A stretch of 64,000 nucleotides of DNA from Phenylobacterium sp. J426 (GTDB lineage: Bacteria; Pseudomonadota; Alphaproteobacteria; Caulobacterales; Caulobacteraceae): assembly GCF_024699945.1 (NCBI RefSeq), contig NZ_JAJOMY010000001.1, positions 2,859,001 through 2,923,000 on the forward strand, written 5' to 3'. Shown here piece after piece: positions 21,903 to 61,786 of this stretch. Each line of letters begins with the position of its first letter. Within the stretch, counting starts at the first letter, position 1. The position numbers were made by a program, and so were the translations under genes. Below the pieces are notes generated by a model that was not told the origin of the DNA, searched no databases, and saw nothing but the letters and a program-made list of their open reading frames with translations.

Positions 21903-22919
21903 GTGATCGAAAGAAACTGGAACGAGCTTATCCGTCCCGAGAAGCCGCAGATCGAGACCGGCGCCGACGCGAGCCGCAAGGCGCGTCTGGTGGCCGAGCC
22001 CCTCGAGCGCGGCTTTGGGGTGACGCTCGGCAACAGCCTGCGCCGAGTCCTGCTGTCGTCTTTGCAAGGCGCGGCCGTGACCGCCGTCCAGATTGACGGC
22101 GTGGTCCACGAGTTCTCCTCGCTGGAAGGCGTGCGTGAGGACGTCGTCGACATCGTCCTGAACATCAAGCAACTGGCGCTGCGGATGCATGCCGAGGGGC
22201 CGAAGCGCATGACGCTCCGCGCCACCGGCCCCGGCGCCGTGACCGCCAGCCAGATCGAGGCTCCGGCCGACATCGAGATCCTGAACGGCGACCATGTGCT
22301 CTGCACGCTGGACGACGGCGCCCAGGTCCGTATGGAATTCACTGTCCAGACCGGTAAGGGCTACGTCCCGGCCGAAATGAATCGTCCGGAAGATGCTCCC
22401 ATCGGCCTGATCGCCGTCGACAGCCTGTTCTCGCCGGTGAAGCGCGTCGCCTATCGCGTCGAGCCGACCCGCCAGGGCCAGAGCCTCGACTACGACAAGC
22501 TGATCATGGAAGTGGAGACCAACGGCGCGGTCAGCCCCGTCGACGCCGTGGCGTACGCCGCGCGCATCCTCCAGGACCAGCTGCAGATCTTCATCACCTT
22601 CGAAGAGCCGAAGAAGAAGGTCGAGGGCGAGGCCAAGCCGGAACTGCCGTTCAACCCGGCGCTCCTGAAGAAGGTCGACGAGCTCGAACTGTCGGTCCGT
22701 TCGGCCAACTGCCTGAAGAACGACAACATCGTCTACATCGGCGATCTGATCCAGAAGACGGAAGCCGAGATGCTCCGGACGCCGAACTTCGGCCGGAAGT
22801 CTCTGAACGAGATCAAGGAAGTGCTGGCGGGCATGGGGCTGCACCTCGGCATGGACGTGCCGAACTGGCCGCCGGAGAACATCGAAGAGCTGGCGAAGAA
22901 GTTCGAAGACCAGATGTAA
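21903..22919 (+). CDS. rpoA: RNA polymerase subunit alpha
   Basis: 338 residues from GTG 21903 ([18 protein letters not shown]), behind GAGGGACACC. The alpha-NTD has [18 protein letters not shown]-type residues ([20 protein letters not shown]), and the alpha-CTD has [16 protein letters not shown] and [16 protein letters not shown], the UP-element and activator surface. The upstream in-frame start at 21867 is unlikely. Confidence 0.97.
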
Positions 22920-22939
22920 TCGACTACCGCGCTCGCTCG

Positions 22940-22972
22940 GGACCGCCCAGCTCCCTTCTGGGAGGGCGGTCC
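22940..22972 (+). promoter_or_regulatory. Long hairpin in the rpoA-rplQ gap
   Basis: An 8-bp outer stem (22940-22947 with 22965-22972), a CAG bulge and a 5-bp inner stem (22951-22955 with 22960-22964, TTCT loop). No T tract follows, so it is not a classical terminator. It may be an RNA-processing or translational-control element for rplQ. Confidence 0.5.
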
Positions 22973-23086
22973 GGGCCCCGCGAAGCCGCAACAGCGGTGG
23001 AGGGCCCCGGCGCTTCGTGATGACCCAGGCGGGAGCCAGGCTGGGATTGGTCAGGTAAGCGGGCAGGGAAGCCCAGGAGATACGAA

Positions 23087-23500
23087 ATGCGTCACGGTAA
23101 AGCCCACCGCAAACTGGGTCGTACGACCGCCCACCGCACCGCCATGTTCGCGAACATGTCGGCCAGCCTGATCAAGCACGAGCAGATCGTGACCACCCTG
23201 CCGAAGGCGAAGGAACTGCGTCCCTTCGTCGAGAAGCTTGTGACGCTCGCCAAGCGCGGCGACCTGCACGCCCGCCGTCAGGCCATCAGCCACGTCCGCG
23301 ACGTCGAGCAGGTCGGCAAGCTGTTCTCGGTCCTCGGCCCGCGCTACGCGGAACGCAATGGCGGCTACATCCGCGTCCTGAAGGCCGGTTACCGTCATGG
23401 CGACAACGCCCCGATGGCGGTCATCGAGTTCGTGGACCGTGATCCTGCCGAGAAGGGCAAGGATTCTGGCCCGGTGGCCGAGGCCGGCTTCGAGGCCTAA
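23087..23500 (+). CDS. rplQ: 50S ribosomal protein L17
   Basis: 137 residues: [20 protein letters not shown] and [22 protein letters not shown]17 lies on the 50S solvent face near the tunnel exit. It is the last gene of the ribosomal cluster, followed by a strong terminator. Confidence 0.97.
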
Positions 23501-23523
23501 GCCACAGCGACGCATTTATCAGC

Positions 23524-23553
23524 AGGGCCCCGGACAGCGATGTCCGGGGCCCT
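23524..23553 (+). terminator. Rho-independent terminator ending the ribosomal cluster
   Basis: A 13-bp perfect stem (23524-23536 with 23541-23553) with a GCGA loop, followed by TTGCTAT. It lies 23 bases after rplQ. Confidence 0.85.
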
Positions 23554-23559
23554 TTGCTA

Positions 23560-23589
23560 TTGGCAGATAATTGCATAATCTGATAACTA
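23560..23589 (+). promoter_or_regulatory. Candidate promoter in an AT-rich island before the VOC operon
   Basis: TTGGCA (23560-23565) and TAACTA (23584-23589), spacer 18, within about 40 bases of distinctly AT-rich sequence in otherwise GC-rich DNA. The encoded ArsR regulator may bind here, but no perfect palindrome is visible. Confidence 0.4.
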
Positions 23590-23616
23590 TTACAAAAATG
23601 CGGAAGGAGATGGCCG

Positions 23617-24069
23617 ATGGCCGATCGCAGCACCCTGACATCCGCCCTCTGCTATCGCGATCCCAAGGCGGCGCTGGAGTTCCTGGAAGCAGCCTTCGGC
23701 TTCGAGCTCGTGATGCTCATCGAGGATGGCGAAGGCAACCTGGCGCACTCCGAGATGCGCAGCGGGGACAGCCTGATCATGATCGGGACTGAATGGACCG
23801 ACGACCATAAGAGCCCCGCGTCCCTAGGCGGCAAGAACACCCAGACCGTCCATATCCATGTGGCCGAAGACATCGACGCCCACTGTGAGCGCGCCAGGGC
23901 CGCAGGGTTCGAGATCCTGATGGAGCCCGCCGACCAGTTCTATGGCGACCGCACCTACCGCTGCCGCGATCCGGAAGGCCACTTCTGGACCGTGGGCCAG
24001 ACGGTTCGGCCCGTCAGCCGCGAGGAGGCGGAGGCCGCCAGCGGGCTGAAGATCGACGGATGGCTGTGA
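23617..24069 (+). CDS. VOC family (glyoxalase/bleomycin-resistance fold) protein
   Basis: 150 residues from ATG 23617, behind AAGGAG. It has paired beta-alpha-beta-beta-beta modules: LCYRDPKAALEFLEAAFGFE in the first and DAHCERARAAGFEILMEPADQFYGDRTYRCRDPEGHFWTVGQ-type motifs in the second (DPEGHFWTVGQ). This is the PhnB/YCII-like VOC type. The substrate is unknown. The 3' end overlaps the ArsR gene by ten bases; such VOC-ArsR-SRPBCC operons are common. Confidence 0.82.
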   Translation: MADRSTLTSALCYRDPKAALEFLEAAFGFELVMLIEDGEGNLAHSEMRSGDSLIMIGTEWTDDHKSPASLGGKNTQTVHIHVAEDIDAHCERARAAGFEILMEPADQFYGDRTYRCRDPEGHFWTVGQTVRPVSREEAEAASGLKIDGWL

Positions 24070-49809: not shown

Positions 49810-50533
49810 ATGATCGACCTCCACTTCGTGGCGACCCCCAACGGCCAGAAGATCAGCATCGCGCTGGAAGAGGTCGGACTCCCGTACCGGATCATCAGCT
49901 ACGACATCTTCGAGGGCGACCAGCACACGCCCGAGTTCGGACGGATCAACCCCAACCATAAGCTGCCGGCGATCGTGGACCACGATCCGCCCTTTGGCGG
50001 CGGGCCGCACGCGGTCTTCGAGTCCGGCGCCATCCTCCAGTACCTCGCCGAGAAGACCGGCCAACTGCTGCCGAAGGATCCGCGCCAGCGCAGCGTCGCC
50101 ATCCAGTGGCTGACCTGGCAGGTGGCGGGTCTGGGTCCAATGGGGGGGACAGGCGGCGCACTTCGTCCGCTACGCGCCCGAGAAGATCCCCTACGCCATC
50201 GAGCGCTACACAAAGGAGCTCGACCGGCTGATGCAGGTGCTGGAGCGCCGGCTCGGTGAGGTGGAGTACCTGGCGGGTGACGAATACTCGATCGCCGACA
50301 TCGCTGTGTGGCCGGGCCGTTCGGCCGCCGGCACGCTCAGCATCGACATCCAGCAGCAGTATCCGAACGTCCATCGTTGGTTCGCCAAGATCGCCGAACG
50401 GCCGGCGGTGATCCGCGGCCGCGACGCGGAGAAAGCTGTCCCTGAAAAGTACCTGCAGAAGTCCGCAAAGCTGACGCCCGAACAATGGTCCAACATGTTC
50501 GGCGAACGGATGCATCAGGCCGTACGTCTCTAG
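49810..50533 (+). CDS. Glutathione S-transferase family, YfcG/YghU-like (frameshift)
   Basis: Starts ATG 49810 behind GAGGAG; length 3n+1. Thioredoxin-like N domain: [47 protein letters not shown] domain in the next frame: [40 protein letters not shown]. One G removed from the seven at 50142-50148 gives about 240 residues. YfcG/YghU-type proteins have disulfide reductase activity using glutathione. Confidence 0.88.
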
Positions 50534-51582: not shown

Positions 51583-52491
51583 TCAGACAGGGTCGTAGGG
51601 AAAGACCGATGCGGTGGCGCCAAGGTCGGTGAAGCTCGCCTGCATCGCCGGGAAGCCCTGGGCGATCAGGTCGGCCGGCGACCAGCCCTCGACCTTGGTG
51701 ACCGATTTCACCGGACGCGGCTGGTTGAACAGCACCACCTCGTTGCCGCGGGCGGCGAAGATCTGGCCGTTCACGTTCGAAGCCGCCAGGGCGACCGCCA
51801 GCTGGGCGACCTGGTCCGCGCGCATGAAGTTCTTCATCCGCTCGACCCGTTGGGCCGAGGCCTCGTCCTTCACCGGAATGGTGGCGATCATCCGCGTCCA
51901 AGCGAACGGCGCGATGATGTTGGACCGCACGTTCTTGGCCGCCCCTTCCATGGCGACGATGCGCGAGAGGCCCATCACGCCCAGCTTGGCGGCGGCGTAG
52001 TTGGCCTGGCCGATGTTGCCGATCAGGCCCGAAGTCGAGGTGAAGTGGACGTACGAGCCGTCCTCCTGGTTGCGGAAGTGCTCCACGGTTGCCCGGGTGA
52101 CGTTGAACGCGCCGCGCAGGTGGACCTGGATCACCGCGTCCCAGTCGGCCTCGTCCATCTTGTGGAACATCTTGTCCCGCAGGATGCCGGCCGGGTTCAC
52201 CACGGCATGCAGGCCGCCGAAGCTGTCCATCGCCTGTTCGAACATGCGCCGCGCGCCGGCCATGTCCGCCACGCTGTCCGAGTTGGAGACGGCCTCGCCG
52301 CCCGCGGCGCGGATCTCCTGGGCCGTCTGCTCGGCCGGGCCCGCGTCGCCCAGGTCGCCACCCGAGACGCCGCCGCCGAGGTCGTTGACCACGACCTTCG
52401 CGCCCTCCTTGGCGGCGAGCAGGGCGCACTCCTTGCCGATGCCGCCCGCGCCGCCGGTGACCAGCACCACCTTTCCGCTCAGAACGCCCAC
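51583..52491 (-). CDS. Short-chain dehydrogenase/reductase (SDR)
   Basis: 302 residues from GTG 52491. The NAD(P) motif is TGGAGGIG; the dinucleotide-stabilising motif is VVNPAGIL (usually NNAG, here N-P); catalytic STSGLIG (Ser), then NYAAAKLG (Tyr-x3-Lys). The extra N-terminal length and C-terminal FPYDPV resemble (3R)-hydroxyacyl-CoA dehydrogenases of the MFE-2 type. Probably acts on a hydroxyacyl-CoA in this catabolic locus. Confidence 0.88.
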   Translation of the reverse strand: MGVLSGKVVLVTGGAGGIGKECALLAAKEGAKVVVNDLGGGVSGGDLGDAGPAEQTAQEIRAAGGEAVSNSDSVADMAGARRMFEQAMDSFGGLHAVVNPAGILRDKMFHKMDEADWDAVIQVHLRGAFNVTRATVEHFRNQEDGSYVHFTSTSGLIGNIGQANYAAAKLGVMGLSRIVAMEGAAKNVRSNIIAPFAWTRMIATIPVKDEASAQRVERMKNFMRADQVAQLAVALAASNVNGQIFAARGNEVVLFNQPRPVKSVTKVEGWSPADLIAQGFPAMQASFTDLGATASVFPYDPV

Positions 52492-52529
52492 GTCTCGTCT
52501 CCCGATCTCTGTCTGCGACCGCCCGGCGG

Positions 52530-53705
52530 TCAGGTTAGGGCTTCGACCTGCTGCGGGGAGAGCCCCGCGGCAAGCAGGATTTCTCGCGTGTGCTCGCCCA
52601 GCCGGGGCGGCATCCGCACAGGCGGTCGCTCGCCGTCGATCAGCACGGGCACCCCAGTCATCCTCAGCGTCGTGCCGTCCGGCTGCTCGCGCGTGTCGAA
52701 CAACCCCACGGCCTGCAGGTGCGGGTCTACGATGAGGTCGTCGAGGCTCTTCACCGGCGCGTTCGGCACCTCCAGCCGCTCCAGGATGTCGGTCCATTCG
52801 GCGGTGGTCCTGGTGACGAGGATCTCGCCGACGATGGCGTACAGCGCGCCGATGTTGTCGGTGCGCGCCGCGATGCCGTCGAACCGCGGATCGGCCGCCA
52901 GTTCGGGCCGGCCGCCCGCCTCGAAGAAGCTCTTCCAGTGCTGGTCGGTGTAGGGCAGGGCGCAGATGTAGCCATCCGCCGTGGCGAACGGACGCCGCTC
53001 GGGCGTCATCACGCGCGGATAGCTGGCCGGGCCCTTCGGCGGATCGAAGTGGCGCCCGTAGAGGTGCTCGACGGCGGTGTAGGCCACCAGGCTCTCGAAC
53101 ATCGGCACTTCGAGGTAGCAGCCTTCGCCGGTCCGCTGCTGCTTCACCACGGCCGAGAGGATGGCGATCGCGCCGACCATGCCCGCCGTCTTGTCGGCCG
53201 CGGCGGTGGGCAGGTAGGCCGGCGCGCCCGTCCGCTGGCCCTGCAGGTCGGCCAGGCCCGACATGCCCTGGATGATGTCGTCATAGGCGGGCCGCCCCCC
53301 GTAGGGGCCGCTTTCGCCGAAGCCGTGCAGGGTGGCGTAGATCAGGCGTGGATTGCGCACCCGTAGCGTCTCAGGATCGAGACCCAACGCCCGCATCTTC
53401 TGCGGACGGTTGTTGTGCATCAGCACGTCGACGGTGTTGGCCAGGGCCAGCAACGCCTCGCGGCCAGCCTGCGTCTTGAGGTCGAGGACGACGCTCTTCT
53501 TGTTGCGGTTGGCGGCGAGGAACACCGAGGCCATGTTGGGCTCGGCGCGCGGGCCTATGCGGCGCGTCGTGTCACCGGCGGGCGGCTCCACCTTGATCAC
53601 CTCGGCCCCGAAGTCGGCGAGCCACTGGGCGGCGTAGGGCGCCATCAGCACGGCGCCCAGGTCCAGCACTCTCACGCCGTCGAGCGGCAGCGTCGGAAGA
53701 CTCAT
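52530..53705 (-). CDS. CaiB/BaiF family (type III) CoA-transferase
   Basis: 391 residues. MSLPTLPLDGVRVLDLGAVLMAPYAAQWLADFGAEVIKVEPP, RNKKSVVLDLKTQAGR and the catalytic Asp in PAYDDIIQGMSGL, with an intact C domain. It transfers CoA between an acyl-CoA and a free acid, likely activating the substrate of this locus. Divergent from the dehydrogenase gene with a 53-base gap. Confidence 0.9.
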   Translation of the reverse strand: MSLPTLPLDGVRVLDLGAVLMAPYAAQWLADFGAEVIKVEPPAGDTTRRIGPRAEPNMASVFLAANRNKKSVVLDLKTQAGREALLALANTVDVLMHNNRPQKMRALGLDPETLRVRNPRLIYATLHGFGESGPYGGRPAYDDIIQGMSGLADLQGQRTGAPAYLPTAAADKTAGMVGAIAILSAVVKQQRTGEGCYLEVPMFESLVAYTAVEHLYGRHFDPPKGPASYPRVMTPERRPFATADGYICALPYTDQHWKSFFEAGGRPELAADPRFDGIAARTDNIGALYAIVGEILVTRTTAEWTDILERLEVPNAPVKSLDDLIVDPHLQAVGLFDTREQPDGTTLRMTGVPVLIDGERPPVRMPPRLGEHTREILLAAGLSPQQVEALT

Positions 53706-53716
53706 GCCCGAGACCT

Positions 53717-53746
53717 TAGTTGGTTGACGCAGCGGCGGCCCAACTA
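53717..53746. promoter_or_regulatory. Inverted repeat in the divergent CoA-transferase/dehydrogenase promoter
   Basis: TAGTTGG (53717-53723) and CCAACTA (53740-53746) are exact reverse complements 16 bases apart; flanking bases extend the match (CCT before, AGG after, with one missing base). It fills the 53-base gap between divergent genes, fitting an operator for one or both arms. Confidence 0.5.
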
Positions 53747-53758
53747 GGATCGCTCGGC

Positions 53759-54910
53759 ATGCTCGAGACTCTCAACTTGGCCGCCATACCGCCCGAGGAC
53801 GAGGCCCTGCGGGAGCCCGTGCGCGCATTTCTGGCCGAGCGGCTGGCCGCCGTGTCAGCCGCGAGGCGCGCCCGCACCTGGATGGGCTACGACGCCGACT
53901 TCACCAAGGCCTTGGCCGAGAAGGGCTGGGTCGGCCTGACTCTGCCGCAGGACTACGGCGGCCAGGCGCGCAGCCCCTTCGCGCGCTTCGTGCTGATCGA
54001 GGAACTGCTGGCGGCCGGAGCTCCGGTGGCCGCGCACTGGATCGCCGAGCGCCAGAGCGCGCCGCTGATCCTGCGCTACGGCACGGAGGAGCAGAAGCGG
54101 CGGATCGTTCCCGCGGTTTGCCGGGGCGAGGCGTTCTTCTGCATCGGCATGAGCGAGCCGAATTCAGGCTCGGACCTCGCCAGCGTGCGGAGTCGCGCTG
54201 ACAGGGTCGATGGCGGCTGGAAGCTGTCGGGCACGAAGATCTGGACGACCTACGGCCACAAGGCCCACTTCATGATCGCCCTGGTGCGCACAAGCGGCGC
54301 GCCCGAGGATCGCAACAACGGCCTGTCGCAGTTCCTGATCGACCTGAAGGCGCCGGGCGTCACGGCGCGGCCGATCCGCGACCTCGCCGGCGATGAGCAC
54401 TTCTCGGAGGTCCACTTCGACGACGCGATCCTGCCGGAGGATGCGCTGCTGGGTCAGGAAGGCGCGGGCTGGGAGCAGGTGAACGCCGAACTGGCCTTCG
54501 AGCGCTCGGGGCCGGAGCGGATCTATTCCTCGACCGTGCTGGTCGACGCTTGGCTCGACTATCTCCGCGGCCGCGGGAACCTCACCGACGCGGAGCGCGT
54601 GCTGGCCGGCCGGCTGTTGGCAGAGCTCTCGGCGCTCAGGAACATGTCGCTGTCGGTCACCGCCATGCTGGCGGCCGGCAAGAGTCCGGTGGTGGAGGCC
54701 TCGGTCGTTAAGGACCTGGGCACCGGCTTCGAACAATCAATCCCGACGCTGATCGCCGATCATCTGGCTGGCGAGGCCGACGGGGTGGTCCCAGCCGAGC
54801 TTCTGGCGACCGTCGAGTACCTCGGCGGCATGTGCCCGACCTTCTCCTTGCGCGGCGGCACCCGCGAGATCTTGCGCGGCATCATCGCCCGCGGCTTGGG
54901 CCTGAGGTGA
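53759..54910 (+). CDS. Acyl-CoA dehydrogenase, full-length
   Basis: 383 residues from ATG 53759. Motifs: GWVGLTLPQDYGGQ, CIGMSEPNSGSDLASVRSRAD (FAD/acyl site), LSGTKIWTTYG, and the C-terminal GGMCPTFSLRGGTREILRGIIARGLG. It oxidises an acyl-CoA to the 2-enoyl form. Three bases before the next, half-size dehydrogenase, with which it may form a heteromer. Confidence 0.9.
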   Translation: MLETLNLAAIPPEDEALREPVRAFLAERLAAVSAARRARTWMGYDADFTKALAEKGWVGLTLPQDYGGQARSPFARFVLIEELLAAGAPVAAHWIAERQSAPLILRYGTEEQKRRIVPAVCRGEAFFCIGMSEPNSGSDLASVRSRADRVDGGWKLSGTKIWTTYGHKAHFMIALVRTSGAPEDRNNGLSQFLIDLKAPGVTARPIRDLAGDEHFSEVHFDDAILPEDALLGQEGAGWEQVNAELAFERSGPERIYSSTVLVDAWLDYLRGRGNLTDAERVLAGRLLAELSALRNMSLSVTAMLAAGKSPVVEASVVKDLGTGFEQSIPTLIADHLAGEADGVVPAELLATVEYLGGMCPTFSLRGGTREILRGIIARGLGLR

Positions 54911-54914
54911 GGCG

Positions 54915-55589
54915 ATGAGCGATGACCTGATCTCCGAACAGTTCGCCCGCCTGCTGGACGGTCTGCCGCCCGACGATCCTTGGCCGACGCTCCAGGAATC
55001 CGGCTTCCTCGACCTGCTGGCGGAGGCGTCGCTGGAGGAGGTCTTTCCGCTGGCGCTGGTCGTCGGTGCGAGGGCCCGGGCGCCCAACGTGCTGGACGCC
55101 ATGGCAAAGCGCCTGGCCGATCCCGTCCCGCGCGCGCTGGCCGCGACCCTGGCGGCCGGCGAGATGGCCGGGGCGCTGGAGGCCGTTCAGGCGCTCACCG
55201 TAGATTATGCGTTGACCCGAAGGCAGTTCGGCCGCGAGATCGGCAAGTTCCAGGCGATCCAGCACCAGATCGCGGTGCTGGCCCAGGAGGTCATCGCCGC
55301 TCGCATCGCCGCCCAGGCCGCCTTCGTCGGTGCGCCCGCCGAGGTGTCCGAACACCGCGCCGCCGCCGCCAAGATCCGCTGTAATCAGGCGGCCGTCAGG
55401 GGCTCGGCCATTGCACACGCCGTACACGGCGCGATCGGCGTGTCGGACGAGTTCGTGCTGCACCACTACACGCGACGCCTGCGGGCGCTGTCCCTCAGCC
55501 ACGGCGGCGAAGCCTGGTGGGCGGCGAAGCTGGGTGACTGGGCGCTGAGCGAAGCGCAGGATTTCACCTCTCTGGCGCGCGCACTTTAA
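54915..55589 (+). CDS. Acyl-CoA dehydrogenase C-terminal-domain protein (truncated family member)
   Basis: 224 residues, about 55% of a normal ACAD. It begins MSDDLISEQFARLLDGLPPDDPW and goes straight into the C-terminal helical domain: ALTVDYALTRRQFGREIGKFQAIQHQIAVL and AVHGAIGVSDEFVLHHYTRRL. The beta domain with the flavin-stacking motif is missing. The ORF is intact with its own Shine-Dalgarno context, so this is not a visible frameshift. It could be the non-catalytic subunit of a heteromeric dehydrogenase. Confidence 0.8.
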   Translation: MSDDLISEQFARLLDGLPPDDPWPTLQESGFLDLLAEASLEEVFPLALVVGARARAPNVLDAMAKRLADPVPRALAATLAAGEMAGALEAVQALTVDYALTRRQFGREIGKFQAIQHQIAVLAQEVIAARIAAQAAFVGAPAEVSEHRAAAAKIRCNQAAVRGSAIAHAVHGAIGVSDEFVLHHYTRRLRALSLSHGGEAWWAAKLGDWALSEAQDFTSLARAL

Positions 55590-55604
55590 GGAGGAGACGA
55601 AAGC

Positions 55605-57077
55605 ATGGTCGGCATCATCGCGGCGGGCGCCTACGTCCCCCGTCTTCGCCTCCAGCGGCAGGCGATCGCCGACGCCCACGCCTGGTTCGCGCCGGGCCTC
55701 AAGGGGCTGGCCAAGGGCGAGCGGGCGATCGCCAGCTGGGACGAGGACGCGATCACCATGTCCGTGGAGGCGGCTCGTGACTGTCTGACCGGCGTCGATC
55801 GGGCGCGCGTGGCGAGGGTCGTTTTGGCCTCGACCAGCCATCCCAATGCCGACCGCCAGAACGCAGGCATCGCCAAGGAAGCCCTCAACCTCGCCGACGA
55901 GGTCGCGGCCATGGACGTTGGCGGCAGCCAGCGCGCTGCGACCTCGGCCCTGCTGGATGCGCTCTACGCCGCGAGGGGCGGGGCGGGCGACGTGCTGTGC
56001 CTGGCGGCCGAGAAGCGTCCTGCGCAGCCGGCTTCGGAGCTCGAACTCACTACGGGCGATGCGGCAGCCGCGTTCCTAGTGGGCGAGGGCGCGGTCGCCG
56101 CCGAGTTCCTGGGCGGTCACAGCATTTCCATCGACTTCGTGGACCACTTCAGGGCCTCCGACAGCGCGTTCGACTACAACTGGGAAGCCCGCTGGGTCCG
56201 CGAGGAGGGCTACGCGAAGATCGCGCCCAAGGCCGTGAACGGCGCGCTCGCGAAGACGGGTCTGAGCGCCGCCGACGTCGACCGGTTCCTGATGGGAGCG
56301 CCCATGAAGGGCGTGAACGAGGCGGTGGCGAAGGCCTCTGGGATCGCGCCGGAGAAGGTGGCCGATCCGTTGCAGGCCCAGCTGGGCGACGCCGGCACGG
56401 CTGCGCCGCTGGTGCTGCTGGCCCACGCGCTGGAGACGGCCAAGGCGGGGGAAATTCTGGTGGTGGCCGGCTTCGGCCAAGGCTGCGACGTGCTGGTGTT
56501 CCGCGCCACAGGTGAGCCGGCCGTCCGCGGCCTCGGCGTCTTGGGGTGGCTGGCCCGCAGGAAGTCGGACGCCAACTATGTGAAGTACCTAACGCTGGCC
56601 GGCCACCTGAACGTCGAGCGCGGCATGCGCGCCGAGTTCGACCAGAAGACGGCGCTCACTGCGCTGAACCGCAGCCGCAAGGCGGTGATGGCTTTGGTCG
56701 GCGGCCGCTGCACCAGGACCGGGACCATCCAGTTCCCGAGGAGTCCCATCAGCGTGGCCCAGAACGACCGGGCGCAGAACACCCAGGAAGACTATCCCTT
56801 GGCCGAGCGGCGGGCGCGGATCGTGACCTACACCGCAGACAGCCTGACCTATTCGCCCGATCCGCCGTGCTGGTACGGCGCCATCGAGTTTGAGGAGGGC
56901 GGCCGGATGACGGTCGAGTTCGTGGACGTCGAGGCGGGCTACGTGGAGGTTGGCGCGCCAATGCGGATGATGTTCCGCATCAAGGCGCAGGACGAACGGC
57001 GGGGCTTCACCAAGTACTTCTGGAAGGCGGTGCCCGACTATCTGGCGGGCGAGAACGCCAAGCTGGCGGCGGAATAG
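55605..57077 (+). CDS. HMG-CoA synthase-like domain fused to DUF35 OB-fold
   Basis: 490 residues. Residues 1-340 are HMG-CoA synthase-like thiolase fold: MVGIIAAGAYVPRLRL, Glu47 in WDEDAITMSVEAA conserved. The expected catalytic Cys is absent (MDVGGSQRAATSAL, about 104-116) and the usual His region reads FLMGAPMKGVNEAV. Residues 355-490 are a DUF35 protein: degenerate zinc ribbon (GGRCTRTGTIQFPRSP, one Cys) and OB fold. Probably a structural or CoA-binding partner of the adjacent thiolase rather than a condensing enzyme. Confidence 0.82.
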   Translation: MVGIIAAGAYVPRLRLQRQAIADAHAWFAPGLKGLAKGERAIASWDEDAITMSVEAARDCLTGVDRARVARVVLASTSHPNADRQNAGIAKEALNLADEVAAMDVGGSQRAATSALLDALYAARGGAGDVLCLAAEKRPAQPASELELTTGDAAAAFLVGEGAVAAEFLGGHSISIDFVDHFRASDSAFDYNWEARWVREEGYAKIAPKAVNGALAKTGLSAADVDRFLMGAPMKGVNEAVAKASGIAPEKVADPLQAQLGDAGTAAPLVLLAHALETAKAGEILVVAGFGQGCDVLVFRATGEPAVRGLGVLGWLARRKSDANYVKYLTLAGHLNVERGMRAEFDQKTALTALNRSRKAVMALVGGRCTRTGTIQFPRSPISVAQNDRAQNTQEDYPLAERRARIVTYTADSLTYSPDPPCWYGAIEFEEGGRMTVEFVDVEAGYVEVGAPMRMMFRIKAQDERRGFTKYFWKAVPDYLAGENAKLAAE

Positions 57078-57088
57078 GAGCGGGGACG

Positions 57089-58294
57089 ATGGCGAGCGGT
57101 ATCAAGGACCGGGTGGCGATCCTCGGCATGGGCTGCGCCCGCTTCGGCGAGCGCTGGAGTGACGACGCCGAGACGCTGATGGTGGAGGCGTTCGACGAGG
57201 CGCTTGCCGACGCCGGCATCGACGTCAGCCAGATCGATGCAGCCTGGCTGTCGGTCGGCTTTGACGCCCAGAACATCGGCCCCAGCGGGATCCCACTGGC
57301 CATGGCGCTCAGGCTGCCCAACATCGGCGTGACCAAGGTCGAGAACTACTGCGCTTCCGGCACCGACGGCTTTCGCGGGGCCGTCTACGCTGTGGCCTCC
57401 GGCGCCTGCGACATCGCGCTCGCCATGGGCGTCGAGAAGCTGAAGGATACCGGCTACGGCGGGTTGCCGGTGCGCACGCGCGGCACGACCTACGACATGG
57501 TCAATGTCACAGGCTCTGCCCCGGGCTTCTTCGCCCAGTTGGCCGGCGCCTACCGCGCCAAGCACGGCGTCGGCTACGACGACCTGAAGCGGGCCATGGC
57601 GCACGTCTCCGTCAAGAGCCACCAGAACGGCGCCAAGAACCCCAAGGCGCACCTGCGGAAGCAGATCACCGAGGAGCAGGCGCTGAACGCGCCGATGATC
57701 GCGGCGCCGCTGGGGCTATTTGATTGCTGTGGCGTCTCGGACGGCGCGGCGTGCGCAATCGTGACGACGCCCGAGATCGCGAGGGCCTTAGGAAAAACCA
57801 ACCTTGTGCTGGTCAAGGCGCTGCAAATCTCCACCTCCAACGGGTGGGAGCTGCAGGGCGGCGGCTGGGATGGCAGCTACTTCCACACCACCCGCATCGC
57901 GGCCCAGAAGGCGTATGCCGAGGCCGGCATCTCCGACCCGCGGCGACAGCTCAGCCTCACCGAGGTCCACGACTGCTTCTCGGTGACCGAGCTGGTGACG
58001 ATGGAGGACCTGGGGCTCTCGGCCGAGGGCCAGGCCTGGAAGGACGTACTGGACGGCACGTTCGACGCCGAGGGCGAGATTCCCTGTCAGATCGACGGCG
58101 GGCTGAAGTGCTTCGGCCACCCGATCGGCGCTTCCGGGCTGCGGATGATCTACGAGAACTACCTGCAGCTGCTGGGCCGCGCGGGCGAGCGCCAGCGTCA
58201 GGATCCGCCGTCGCTGGCGCTGTCGCACAACCTCGGCGGCATGCCGAACCAGAACGTCAGCGCCGTCGCCATCGTAGGCTTGGAGAAGGCCTAA
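57089..58294 (+). CDS. SCP2-type thiolase (acetyl-CoA acetyltransferase family)
   Basis: 401 residues. Nucleophile in VENYCASGTDGFRGAV; HDCFSVTE and CFGHPIGASGLRM give the catalytic His residues; LSHNLGGMPNQNVSAV closes the domain. These are the SCPx/lipid-transfer-protein thiolase motifs. It follows the HMGCS-DUF35 fusion by 11 bases, so the pair is likely translated together. All thiolase residues are present. Confidence 0.88.
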   Translation: MASGIKDRVAILGMGCARFGERWSDDAETLMVEAFDEALADAGIDVSQIDAAWLSVGFDAQNIGPSGIPLAMALRLPNIGVTKVENYCASGTDGFRGAVYAVASGACDIALAMGVEKLKDTGYGGLPVRTRGTTYDMVNVTGSAPGFFAQLAGAYRAKHGVGYDDLKRAMAHVSVKSHQNGAKNPKAHLRKQITEEQALNAPMIAAPLGLFDCCGVSDGAACAIVTTPEIARALGKTNLVLVKALQISTSNGWELQGGGWDGSYFHTTRIAAQKAYAEAGISDPRRQLSLTEVHDCFSVTELVTMEDLGLSAEGQAWKDVLDGTFDAEGEIPCQIDGGLKCFGHPIGASGLRMIYENYLQLLGRAGERQRQDPPSLALSHNLGGMPNQNVSAVAIVGLEKA

Positions 58295-58298
58295 GTCC

Positions 58299-61200
58299 CT
58301 AGGCGAGCGTTTCCAGCAGCTCGATGATGGCCTGAGCGCGATCGCGCCCGTCGGGGACCTCGCCCCGCCACAGCAGTCGATCGCCGGAGGTCTCAAGCTC
58401 GGCCTTCGCAAAGTCCTTGGCGGCGACGCCGGGCGCGGGGGTGAGCGCGATGGCCTTCGGACCAGCGTCGACCTTGGCGACGCGCGCCGCGACCGCCAGG
58501 GCCTGGATACGGGCAAGGTCGAGGAAGGCTTGGGTCTCGTCCGGCAGGGCGCCGAACCGGTCCTCCAACTCCTCGGCGAAAGCGTCCACCTCTTCGGTGG
58601 AGGTCAGCCGCGCCAGCCGGGCATAGAGGTTGATGCGCACCGTCGGATCCGGAACGTAGGTTTCCGATATCGCGCCCGAGACGCCGACGTTCAGCTGCGG
58701 CGTCCACTCCGGCCCCTCGATCTCGCCCTTGGCGACGCGGACGGCGCGGGACAGCAGCCGTTGATAGAGCGCCGTACCGATCAGCTTCACGTGGCCGGCC
58801 TGTTCATCGCCCAGCAGGTCGCCCGCGCCGCGCAGCTCCAGGTCGCGGGCGCTGATCGCCAGACCGGACCCCAGACGGTCGAAGGCTTCCAAGGTGGATA
58901 GGCGGGCGCGGGTCACGTCCGGCAGCTCTGCGTCGGCGTCGTGGAACAGGTAGGCGACGCCTTGGGCCCGGCCACGGCCGACACGGCCCCGCAGCTGGTG
59001 CAGCTGCGCCAGGCCGAACAGGTCGGCGCGAGCGACGAGCATGGTGTTGGCCCGCGGAACGTCCAGCCCGCTCTCGATGATGTTCGTCGCCAGCAGGACG
59101 TCGCCGTCGCCGGCGGCGAAGCGCACCATCACGTCGTCCGCCTCCTCGGGCGGCAACTCTCCATGCACCACATGGGTCTTCAGCTCAGGGACGAGGCGCT
59201 GCAGTTCGTCGGCCAGCGGTCCCAGGTCGTCGATGCGGGGAGCAACCACGAAGCTCTGGCCGCCCCGGCGCCGCTCGCGGAGCAGGGCGGTGCGGACGGT
59301 GGCGGCGTCAAAGGGGGCCAGGAAGGTGCGGATCGGCCGTCGCCGGGCCGGCGGGGTGGCGATGACGCTGACGTCCTCGATGCCGACCATGGCCAGCTGC
59401 AGGGTGCGGGGGATCGGCGTCGCCGTCATGGTCAGCAGGTGCGCCTCGGGCGCGAGGTCGCGGAGCCGCTGCTTCAGGGCCGCACCGAACCGCTGTTCTT
59501 CATCGATGATCAGCAGGCCGAGGTTCTGGAAGGCGACATCCTTGCCTGCGATGGCGTGGGTGCCGACCACAATTTGGATCGAACCATCCGCCAGGCGGGC
59601 CTTCACCTCGGCGGCCTCTTTGGTCGAGGCCAGCCGCGAGAGGCGGGCCACCTTGATGTCCGTCCCGGCGAAACGGCGTCGGACGCTGTCGTAGTGCTGG
59701 CGGGCGAGCACGGTGGTGGGCGCGACCAGGGCGACTTGGAAGCCGCACAAGGCCGCGGCCGTCGCGGCGCGCAGGGCGACTTCGGTCTTTCCGAAGCCGA
59801 CGTCGCCGCAGACGAGGCGGTTCATCATTCGCCCGGACGCCAGATCCTCCAGCACGGCCTCGATGGCCGCGGCCTGGTCGCGCGTTTCGGGATAAGGGAA
59901 GCGAGCTGCGAGGCGGGCGTAGGCAGGCTTGGGTGGCCGGATCACGACGCCCGGCGTTTCTCGCCGACGGCGCGCCAGCTCGACGAGGTGTTCGGCTGTT
60001 CGGTCGATGTCGGCGCTGAGTTCGGCGCGGCGTTTCGTCCACGCGTCCGTGTGCAGCCGGTCCAGCGTGACGGCCTCGCGCTCTGCGCCGTAGCGCCATA
60101 TCCGCCCGAACTCCTCCACCGGAGCCAGGATGCTGGCGCCGCCGTGGTACTCCAGGCGCAGCGCGTCGCGCTCGACTCCGTCGACCTCGACGCGCTCCAG
60201 CGCGGTCATCACCCCCACGCCATGGTCTTCGTGGATAACGACGTCCTCGACTCGAAGATCGGGATCGGCCAGCAGGTCGGCGCCGGGCGCCGCGTCGCCG
60301 CGCATCGCGACACGTCCGCCCAGCACGTCGGGCGCAGAGATCACGACGAGACGCTGTCTCGGGTCCCGGAAACCGGCGTCAATGTCCGCCGGCATCGTGA
60401 GAAGGGCGCCGTCAGGCGCCGCGTTCACGCCGGCCCAGTCGGGCGCCGGCTCAGGCGAGCGGTCCAGGCCGCGCTTCATGGCGCGACCGAGCGGCCGCAA
60501 CTCATGCGGCAGGCCCGTAAGGAGGACCTTGGCGCCGGCGTCCAGCGCCGCCTTGACATAGTCCGAGAACGCGCGGCCCGGATTGCGCTCGACGGCAAAG
60601 CGCGGGATCGACTCGAGGCCCTCGGGGGGACGCCTCCACCATGGCGTGCTTGGCGATGGCAGTCCGATAGGCTTTGAGCGTCAGGTACAGGCTGTCCGGG
60701 GCGAGGATCTCTCCGGGTTCGTCTTTGGCCAGTTGCCGGCGCGCCTCCTGGGCCTCGGCCACCTGATCCAGGAAGTCGGCGGCGCGCTGGTCGGCCCGGC
60801 CGTCGAAGACGAGGCGGGCGGCGGGCAGGGCCTCCAGAACCGTGGCCATCTTGCCGTAGGTCAACGGCGCACGATGCTCAGCGCCGGATGGCCGCTCTTC
60901 CGAAGGCGCCTCCAGGACCAGCTCAGAAGCGGGCCCCAGCAGGGCGCAGTCGATCGGCTCCTCGGTGCGCTGGCTGAGCGGATCGAAGCGCTTGATCTCC
61001 TGGATGCCATCGTCCTCGTCGAGGGTCAGCCGGATCGGAGCCTCGGCCGCGGCGGGGTAAACGTCCACCACGGCGCCCAGGATCGCGATCTCGCCCGGCT
61101 CGTCGACGCGGTCGTCGAAGACGTAGCCGGTGCGGGCGGCGTAGGCCTGCAGCGCTTCCCGGTCGAGGCGCTCTCCCTGCCGGAGTCGCAGGAAGGCCGA

Positions 61201-61638
61201 CTTCAGAACCCTGGTCGGCGGTACGCGCTGGAGCAGTGCCTCCACTGGAGTCACCAGCACACGCGGGGCTTCGGCCGGGTCGAGGAGGCGCGCCAGGACG
61301 GCCATCCGGCGGCCCATTACGTCGCGCGACGGTGAGGCCCGGTCGTAGGGCAGGCAGTCCCAAGCCGGCAGGACAAGGACCTCGAGCTCAGGGGCGAAGC
61401 GCCGAAGCGCCCGGCCGATCTCTTCAGCGCGTCGGTCGCTGGACGCGACGTAGACCAGGCCGTCCGGTCCTGCCTCACGGGCCGGCGCGATGAGCGCCTG
61501 AGCACACCAAGCAGCGGGCGGCTGCCGGGGTACAGGCGACGGGTCCAATGTCTCCGGCGCCGCGGCAGGCGCTGGCGTTAGCGCCGCATCCACGTGGGCC
61601 GCTTCTACGCGCTCCTCGTAATCCGGATTCCTGTCCAT
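58299..61638 (-). CDS. mfd: Mfd-like transcription-repair coupling translocase (frameshift)
   Basis: Start ATG 61638; length 3n+1. Dropping one G from GGGGGG at 60624-60629 joins the UvrB-like N part (SSDRRAEEIGRALRRFAPELEV) to the CarD-like RNAP-interaction part (VEDVVIHEDHGVGVMTAL), motor (CGDVGFGKTEVALRAA, IIDEEQRFG, LRGRVGRG) and TRCF C domain (EELEDRFGALPDET); 1112 residues. Mfd removes stalled RNAP and recruits UvrA. The RID loop is divergent, so this could be an Mfd paralogue rather than canonical Mfd. Confidence 0.85.
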
Positions 61639-61709
61639 CACCCGCCTCCGTGGGCGGTTGAACCCCTCGCGACGAGGGCTGTTCCCCAGGTCCCTGCAGG
61701 CGGGAATCG

Positions 61710-61738
61710 AAAGGGCGGCCCAGTCGCCTGAGCCGCCC
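61710..61738 (-). terminator. Hairpin between the small ORF and mfd
   Basis: A 7-bp stem GGGCGGC/GCCGCCC (61713-61719 with 61732-61738) continues after a mismatch into CAG/CTG with a TCGC loop; on the minus strand only TTTCG follows. A weak terminator or attenuator reading leftward between the 20-codon ORF and the mfd start. Confidence 0.5.
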
Positions 61739-61786
61739 CCACCGATCTCGGAAAACACTGTCCGTGAAACGGCGTAGATACGAATG

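Follow-up and report, generated by a model that had tools for sequence, protein, structure and literature searches.

The gene at 55605 to 57077 of the window (the whole stretch of 64,000 nucleotides) encodes a domain related to HMG-CoA synthase (HMGCS), an enzyme known from sterol biosynthesis, fused to a DUF35 domain, and it is followed by a thiolase gene. We consider it likely, with a probability of roughly 70%, that this fusion, whose HMGCS-like part has lost its catalytic residues, is an obligatory structural subunit of the adjacent thiolase and that the thiolase carries out all of the chemistry. Comparative genomics gives good support to a scaffold-type counterpart of the thiolase/DUF35/HMGCS complex in bacteria. 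From the sequence, the loss of three catalytic residues, the gene pairing and neighborhood, and the predicted fold, we infer the complex itself, its geometry, the direction of the reaction and the class of substrate.

Composition and catalytic columns of the fusion

The features of the fusion gene, all on the plus strand, are the following.

55588..55594, plus: AAGGAGG, probable Shine-Dalgarno motif of the fusion gene (read directly)
55605..57077, plus: HMGCS-like/DUF35 fusion gene, 490 aa (ORF, family profiles, predicted structure)
55605..56513, plus: HMGCS-like domain, residues about 1-303 (profile, alignment, predicted structure)
55833..55835, plus: Thr77, aligned with the catalytic Glu of true HMGCS (alignment, controls)
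55929..55931, plus: Gln109, aligned with the catalytic Cys (alignment, controls)
56295..56297, plus: Gly231, aligned with the catalytic His; most relatives have Pro here (alignment, controls)
56514..56681, plus: linker, residues about 304-359 (alignment, predicted structure)
56682..57038, plus: DUF35 domain, consisting of the former zinc ribbon and the OB fold (profile, alignment)

The HMG-CoA synthase model NF003274 matched residues 1-300 with 163 bits, which is below its cut-off of 244, and the OB fold model (PF01796, OB_ChsH2_C/DUF35) matched residues 401-458 with 32.8 bits, above its cut-off of 27.1. This is in agreement with the initial annotation, which had described an HMGCS-like domain fused to DUF35. 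The zinc ribbon model matched residues 364-381 below its cut-off. The protein has the fold and the sequence similarity of an HMG-CoA synthase but not the catalytic Cys, Glu and His, and it has the OB fold of DUF35 proteins but not their four zinc-binding cysteines. A frameshift artefact as the origin of the fusion was rejected, since the reading frame is open over its full length.

A scan of one genome per species yielded 316 relatives of the fusion. The best 80 were kept, and the resulting 80 loci are therefore biased towards close relatives. In 79 of these 80 the alignment with the window protein begins at residue 3 or earlier and extends to residue 473 or beyond; L072 aligns from residue 36.

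In the HMMER alignment with the archaeal HMGCS chain 6esq_I, Cys114 corresponds to Gln109, Glu82 to Thr77 and the His of the FHQP motif, which we take to be catalytic, to Gly231. Cys114 and Glu82 are named as catalytic residues of the archaeal enzyme in the accessible text of PMC6392133. The counts for conserved columns rest on MAFFT alignments, as the structural alignment confirms the fold and printed no residue pairs. Among 81 sequences (the window protein and the best 80 of 316 relatives) position 77 was T in 79, A in one and V in one, position 109 was Q in 65 including the window, L in nine, R in three, M in three and K in one, and position 231 was P in 68, A in eight, G in four and S in one. 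Consequently, none of the 81 had E at column 77, C at 109 or H at 231, nor did any of ten further fusion loci of the same alignment. As controls, four stand-alone HMGCS-like loci from Pseudomonadota (here labelled MvaS type, a name of our own) carried E, C and H exactly at these three columns, and 15 FabH-like loci had the C at 109 with their His shifted by one column, to 232. Glu or Cys was also absent from the two respective columns in all 11 aligned plasmid relatives. One of these 11, the fusion of a Sphingopyxis macrogoltabida plasmid (L154, 7980-9410), is a distant relative with His at column 231 and neither Cys nor Glu.

The window protein thus lacks all three catalytic residues, not just two. 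The initial annotation had stated that Cys and His are missing, which the alignment with HMGCS families confirmed in all 81 sequences, with a single plasmid relative carrying the His and with all four controls positive. Its proposal that Glu47 is the retained catalytic Glu was not upheld: Glu47 sits in a DED motif that is shared with true HMGCS, and the column of the catalytic Glu is occupied by Thr77. An active HMG-CoA synthase was rejected on the basis of the empty columns.

The DUF35 part is altered as well. The zinc-ligand positions of the window protein read C, T, S and D, so that only Cys369 is left of the four cysteines. All four were present in 48 of the 81 sequences (window and best 80 of 316); in the other 33, including the window, three or four were gone together, and 31 of them kept the first only. 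On a tree obtained by a quick search and built without the ribbon columns, two changes of the zinc state were needed. The zinc-less sequences formed one clade of 27, which holds the window (support 100), and a minor clade of six (support 89). Further losses are possible, since additional zinc-less sequences were found outside the tree (for example L117, L118, L121, L124, L128, L150 and L154). The four-Cys ribbons of related DUF35 proteins point to loss as the direction of change. The zinc cysteines were thus apparently lost jointly and at least twice, which appears to be new.

Pairing with the thiolase and gene neighborhood

The genes surrounding the fusion are the following.

51583..52797, minus: SDR dehydrogenase ORF, divergent (profiles)
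52530..53705, minus: CoA-transferase family III, divergent (profiles)
53720..54910, plus: acyl-CoA dehydrogenase, 396 aa (profiles)
54915..55589, plus: acyl-CoA dehydrogenase-like subunit, 224 aa, C-terminal domain only (profiles)
57089..58294, plus: SCP2-type thiolase, 401 aa, NF004810 (PRK06157), with Cys88, HDCF (294-297) and GHP (His344)

An intact thiolase 11 bases after the fusion had been noted before, and the ORF of 401 aa starting at 57089 corresponds to it. It belongs to family NF004810 (687.9 bits, cut-off 403) and the thiolase residues are present. Cys88 was kept in 78 of 79 aligned thiolases and H294, C296 and H344 in 76 of 79, the rest being gaps, and all 11 thiolases next to the aligned plasmid relatives carried the Cys, HDCF and GHP motifs. 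Two extra cysteines around GHP, C333 and C341, were likewise invariant in 76 of 79 sequences (the rest gaps) and were absent in five more distant thiolases (three actinobacterial ones and those of Haloferax and Novosphingobium sp. ES2-1).

The fusion is a well delimited family: with the family HMM 11 fusion loci, the window's own among them, scored 623-802 bits and the best non-fusion protein 68 bits. It was matched in 54 of 289 alphaproteobacterial genomes, three of these being of about 1.4 million bases. An NF004810 thiolase above cut-off was found in 53 of the 289 genomes, all of which also had the fusion, and none of the 289 had this thiolase without it. The sole genome with a fusion and no such thiolase (G178) showed a partial match of 32% that stops before DUF35. 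Caulobacter vibrioides, included as a control genome, likewise carried an NF004810 thiolase above cut-off. Altogether there were 59 fusion matches, seven with one stop inside the matched span and one (G191) in two pieces on different contigs. The thiolase lay downstream on the same strand and contig in 57 of the 59, 49 times within 200 bases and eight times at 844-1945 bases; the other two were a contig-edge fragment and the match in G178. A P value computed for this pairing takes no account of kinship and was set aside. Among the best 80 of 316 relatives the thiolase followed directly in 76 loci. In L026 and L081 one or two ORFs separate it from the fusion, the sequence of L076 stops 24 bases past the fusion, and L054 showed no thiolase in the 767 bases left. 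The pairing was also present in Actinomycetota and, with reversed gene order, in Haloferax.

A plasmid collection contained 51 records with a match, from Sphingobium, Novosphingobium, Variovorax, Azoarcus, Rhodococcus, Mycobacterium avium, Streptomyces and haloarchaea. The relatives are named there 'OB-fold domain-containing protein', '3-oxoacyl-ACP synthase III C-terminal domain-containing protein', 'hypothetical protein' or 'zinc ribbon domain-containing protein', and in one Streptomyces record 'hydroxymethylglutaryl-CoA synthase'.

The pairwise distances of fusion and thiolase were correlated with 0.81 (74 loci). In 31 loci with an SDR gene the correlation was 0.85 for fusion and thiolase, compared to 0.66 for fusion and SDR and 0.64 for thiolase and SDR.

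A second NF004810 thiolase located away from any fusion was found in the genomes G067, G165 and G245 (three of 60 listed thiolases). These may work alone, which counts against an obligatory subunit.

Neighbors were identified by Pfam and NCBIfam in flanks with a mean span of 11-12.5 kb. The neighbor categories were derived from families found in the same 80 loci and the window (without the window itself in the counts) and contig ends truncate some of the flanks, so that only the contrast with arbitrary stretches is informative. Within 6 kb of the fusion, the 26 loci of the window's clade contained an acyl-CoA dehydrogenase in 22 and an SDR dehydrogenase in 20 cases, and MaoC hydratases and family III CoA-transferases in 17 and 11 cases, respectively. 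For the 48 zinc-keeping loci the numbers were 16, 21, 8 and 8, respectively, and none of the four was found within 6 kb in the six loci of the minor zinc-less clade. The low number of acyl-CoA dehydrogenases in the former group and the lack of all four in the latter count against the favored reading. In the first 13.5 kb of 20 arbitrary stretches, taken from nine fusion-bearing alphaproteobacterial genomes other than those of the 80 loci, the acyl-CoA dehydrogenase occurred twice and the other three not at all. The setting of the window's clade is therefore one of beta-oxidation. In some zinc-keeping loci, for example L042 and L065, the neighbors are unrelated to beta-oxidation. Aromatic ring dioxygenases were present in some of the plasmid clusters with the fusion.

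The genes identified at 49.8-64 kb of the window include no hydratase, which also counts against that reading. With hydratase-2, SDR and an SCP2-type thiolase, the gene set of the window's clade is reminiscent of how peroxisomes degrade branched and steroid side chains. In a search of this genome (94% complete) for a steroid-ring pathway, a query with an IpdA-like CoA-transferase subunit (our own label) from the ES2-1 plasmid, run without a positive control and therefore uninformative, had no match. A FadD3-family query had 25 matches at 26-49% identity, which were taken as general acyl-CoA ligases.

Several further features of the window were observed. The SDR domain starts near residue 105 of its ORF, and the true start is therefore probably located inside. 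The dehydrogenase-like protein of 224 aa follows a full-size one and could belong to a heteromeric dehydrogenase as its small subunit. The gene for the transcription-repair coupling factor is split on the minus strand into 58302-60500 and 60505-61758 (a UvrB_inter part and a CarD/DEAD/TRCF part), which suggests a frameshift, either real or assembly-derived. Furthermore, an ORF for the N-terminal part of a glutathione S-transferase (49810-50256, plus) is overlapped by an ORF in another frame (50231-50533, plus), which may be the other half of that gene and a second hint of assembly frameshifts.

Solved relatives and alternative explanations

The AlphaFold2 model of the fusion, based on an alignment of 54 sequences, had a pLDDT of 89.5 and a pTM of 0.92. 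Its closest solved structures were the archaeal HMGCS chains of 6esq and 6et9 (Z 45.7, rmsd 1.8, 331 residues aligned), followed by the PhlA-type chains of two three-component acyltransferases and by MucA of MucABC. The top seven matches were all subunits of multi-part complexes and ranked ahead of stand-alone HMGCS and FabH. When the family profile was compared to the PDB, the PhlA-type chains scored 163.5 and 167.6 bits, 6esq_I 142.8, MucA 106.1 and the next match 62.0; the DUF35 chains of 6esq and 5m3k were matched as well. For the thiolase the best matches were 7yvy (175 bits), the archaeal thiolase 6esq_A (169) and BbsB (147), while the PhlC-type chains scored 54-58.

The archaeal chains belong to the acetoacetyl-CoA thiolase/DUF35/HMGCS complex of Methanothermococcus, which accordingly provides the best structural match of the HMGCS part, a sequence match of DUF35 and the second-best PDB match of the thiolase. 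In this complex DUF35 holds thiolase and HMGCS together (work cited in the accessible text of PMC12329534). In the window, too, thiolase, DUF35 and HMGCS-like parts are encoded together. However, the HMGCS of Methanothermococcus is described as active (Cys114, Glu82) and as receiving the intermediate (work cited in PMC6392133 and PMC12329534), whereas here the catalytic residues are gone, the second active site is thus missing, and HMGCS-like part and DUF35 form one chain. The initial annotation had proposed a bacterial scaffold or channeling version of the complex. The scaffold is favored by co-occurrence, gene order, co-variation and the solved relatives. Channeling to a second active site is unlikely, since the absence of the three HMGCS catalytic residues leaves no site.

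PhlABC of Pseudomonas protegens (5m3k, 5mg5) also combines an HMGCS-like subunit devoid of catalytic Cys and Glu with DUF35 and a catalytic thiolase-fold subunit, and the parts found here fit this arrangement. Only residues of PhlC catalyze there, with PhlA and PhlB lining the cavity, as far as described in the accessible text of PMC6392133. In PhlABC the three parts are separate genes and the zinc is kept, whereas here the HMGCS-like and DUF35 parts are fused. The same text also describes the tail at the N-terminus of PhlB as buried between PhlA and PhlC. Residues 353-461 of the family profile align with PhlB 17-128, and by extrapolation of this match the linker would be located at the place of the tail. 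It is nearly invariant (G340 in 81 of 81, R342 in 81 of 81 and D346 in 80 of 81 sequences, window and best 80 of 316) despite a low model confidence (pLDDT below 50 at 341-346). We therefore regard the linker as a putative partner-binding segment.

Further systems for the degradation of CoA esters with rings, the benzoylsuccinyl-CoA thiolase BbsAB (7pxp) and Shy-Sal/ChsH2-Ltp2 (accessible parts of PMC12329534 and PMC11321319), likewise consist of a thiolase-fold enzyme and a DUF35 partner or domain. In the same parts no HMGCS-like subunit is named for Shy-Sal/ChsH2-Ltp2, and Sal and Ltp2 are aldolases. For the ibuprofen genes ipfDE the accessible text of PMC11347016 speaks of a thiolase, while its table has a hypothetical protein for IpfD and an OB-fold protein for IpfE.

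Adjacency and co-occurrence would also be expected from successive steps without contact, which counts against a complex. Fusion and thiolase could act consecutively within one pathway, the fusion being an acyl-CoA binding or regulatory protein, and all of the genomic evidence fits such a functional link. We nevertheless consider this unlikely: the closest solved relatives come from thiolase/DUF35 complexes, Shy binds to the thiolase-fold Sal through its DUF35 domain (accessible text of PMC11321319), and the fusion co-varies more with the thiolase than with the SDR dehydrogenase.

The same solved relatives raise the question of an acyltransferase of the PhlABC type, which would move the acyl group onto an acceptor carbon without cleavage of a 3-ketoacyl-CoA and in which the HMGCS-like domain would be structural only. 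PhlA-type chains are the top profile matches in the PDB, PhlA is likewise without Cys and Glu, and the three parts are the same. However, PhlABC performs C-acylation of phenols according to the available description, whereas beta-oxidation enzymes and CoA-transferases are the frequent neighbors here, and the thiolase is much nearer to 7yvy, 6esq_A and BbsB than to the only distantly similar PhlC. Such an activity is therefore rather improbable.

KSQ domains are decarboxylases in which the Cys is replaced by Gln, and they use a His. A chemistry of its own for the HMGCS-like domain, for example a decarboxylation before or after the thiolase step, would agree with the Gln at the Cys column of 65 of the 81 sequences (window and best 80 of 316), including the window, and with the strongly conserved polar residues R84, W193, E194 and R196, but is very improbable given L, R, M or K at that column in the other 16 with at least 12 changes on the tree, and the absence of His from the catalytic column in all 81 (one plasmid relative has it).

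Proposed function and possible link to estrogen degradation

For the structural subunit favored here, we propose the following arrangement by analogy with the archaeal complex and PhlABC. The fusion would dock through its DUF35 part on the thiolase dimer, the dimer of the HMGCS-like domains would hold two thiolase/DUF35 units together, and both parts of the fusion would close and shape the CoA and acyl pocket of the thiolase. An acyl-CoA dehydrogenase, a hydratase and an SDR dehydrogenase, often encoded nearby, would supply a 3-ketoacyl-CoA. This would be cleaved by the thiolase (Cys88, His294/Cys296, His344) in a CoA-dependent reaction. The substrate is probably bulky or branched, as suggested by the company of the gene in plasmid clusters with ring dioxygenases and in a cluster of the estrogen type.

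The latter was found on plasmid p3 of Novosphingobium sp. ES2-1. The gene order is acyl-CoA dehydrogenase, SDR, fusion, thiolase and two enoyl-CoA hydratase-type genes, after which come a short hypothetical gene, a lipid-transfer protein, an OB-fold protein and a P450; VOC proteins and an indolepyruvate ferredoxin oxidoreductase are encoded divergently. The fusion has the same build and is 33% identical to the window protein, and the SDR proteins of both clusters share only 31% identity, which counts against the favored reading. Near the fused pair, a second thiolase-like lipid-transfer protein with a separate small OB-fold protein was observed at 22104-23695.

This order matches operon OpA of the edc genes of Novosphingobium (now Caenibius) tardaugens, which is described in the accessible text of PMC7793797 as reaching from a P450 to an acyl-CoA dehydrogenase and including a thiolase, an HMG-CoA synthase and a hydroxyacyl-CoA dehydrogenase. 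The 'HMG-CoA synthase' EGO55_13555 is one of two edc genes left there without a pathway step, since a condensing enzyme made no sense, and a different activity, for example that of a thiolase, was proposed. By gene order, EGO55_13555 is a possible partner subunit of the adjacent thiolase.

A Cys-less HMGCS-like subunit next to DUF35 and a thiolase-fold enzyme is already known from PhlABC (accessible text of PMC6392133). Within the literature searched, several points are apparently new: the fused form as a thiolase partner, its occurrence across many genomes almost exclusively together with one thiolase family, the loss of zinc on more than one occasion, and the connection to the orphan estrogen gene. 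That literature, which left most subscription papers outside, contained no HMGCS-DUF35 fusion with a thiolase in its accessible parts, and the nearest case was the HMG-CoA synthase beside a thiolase in PMC7793797.

As a tentative generalization, for which the odds are clearly below even, the pair might represent a widespread and unrecognized heteromeric thiolase class of bacteria and haloarchaea. The dead HMGCS would be the substrate-holding half of the pocket for 3-ketoacyl-CoAs with rings or branches, the zinc ribbon would be dispensable and lost at least twice, and the class would carry out the cleavage in which the orphan 'HMG-CoA synthase' of estrogen degradation takes part.

If the fusion is a fixed non-catalytic subunit of the thiolase, the existing labels of its relatives are misleading and the thiolase may fail when it is tested by itself in a heterologous host. 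Furthermore, an enzyme of a channeling complex would then have a dead relative that serves as a structural part of a catabolic complex, with the A and B subunits fused and the zinc given up.
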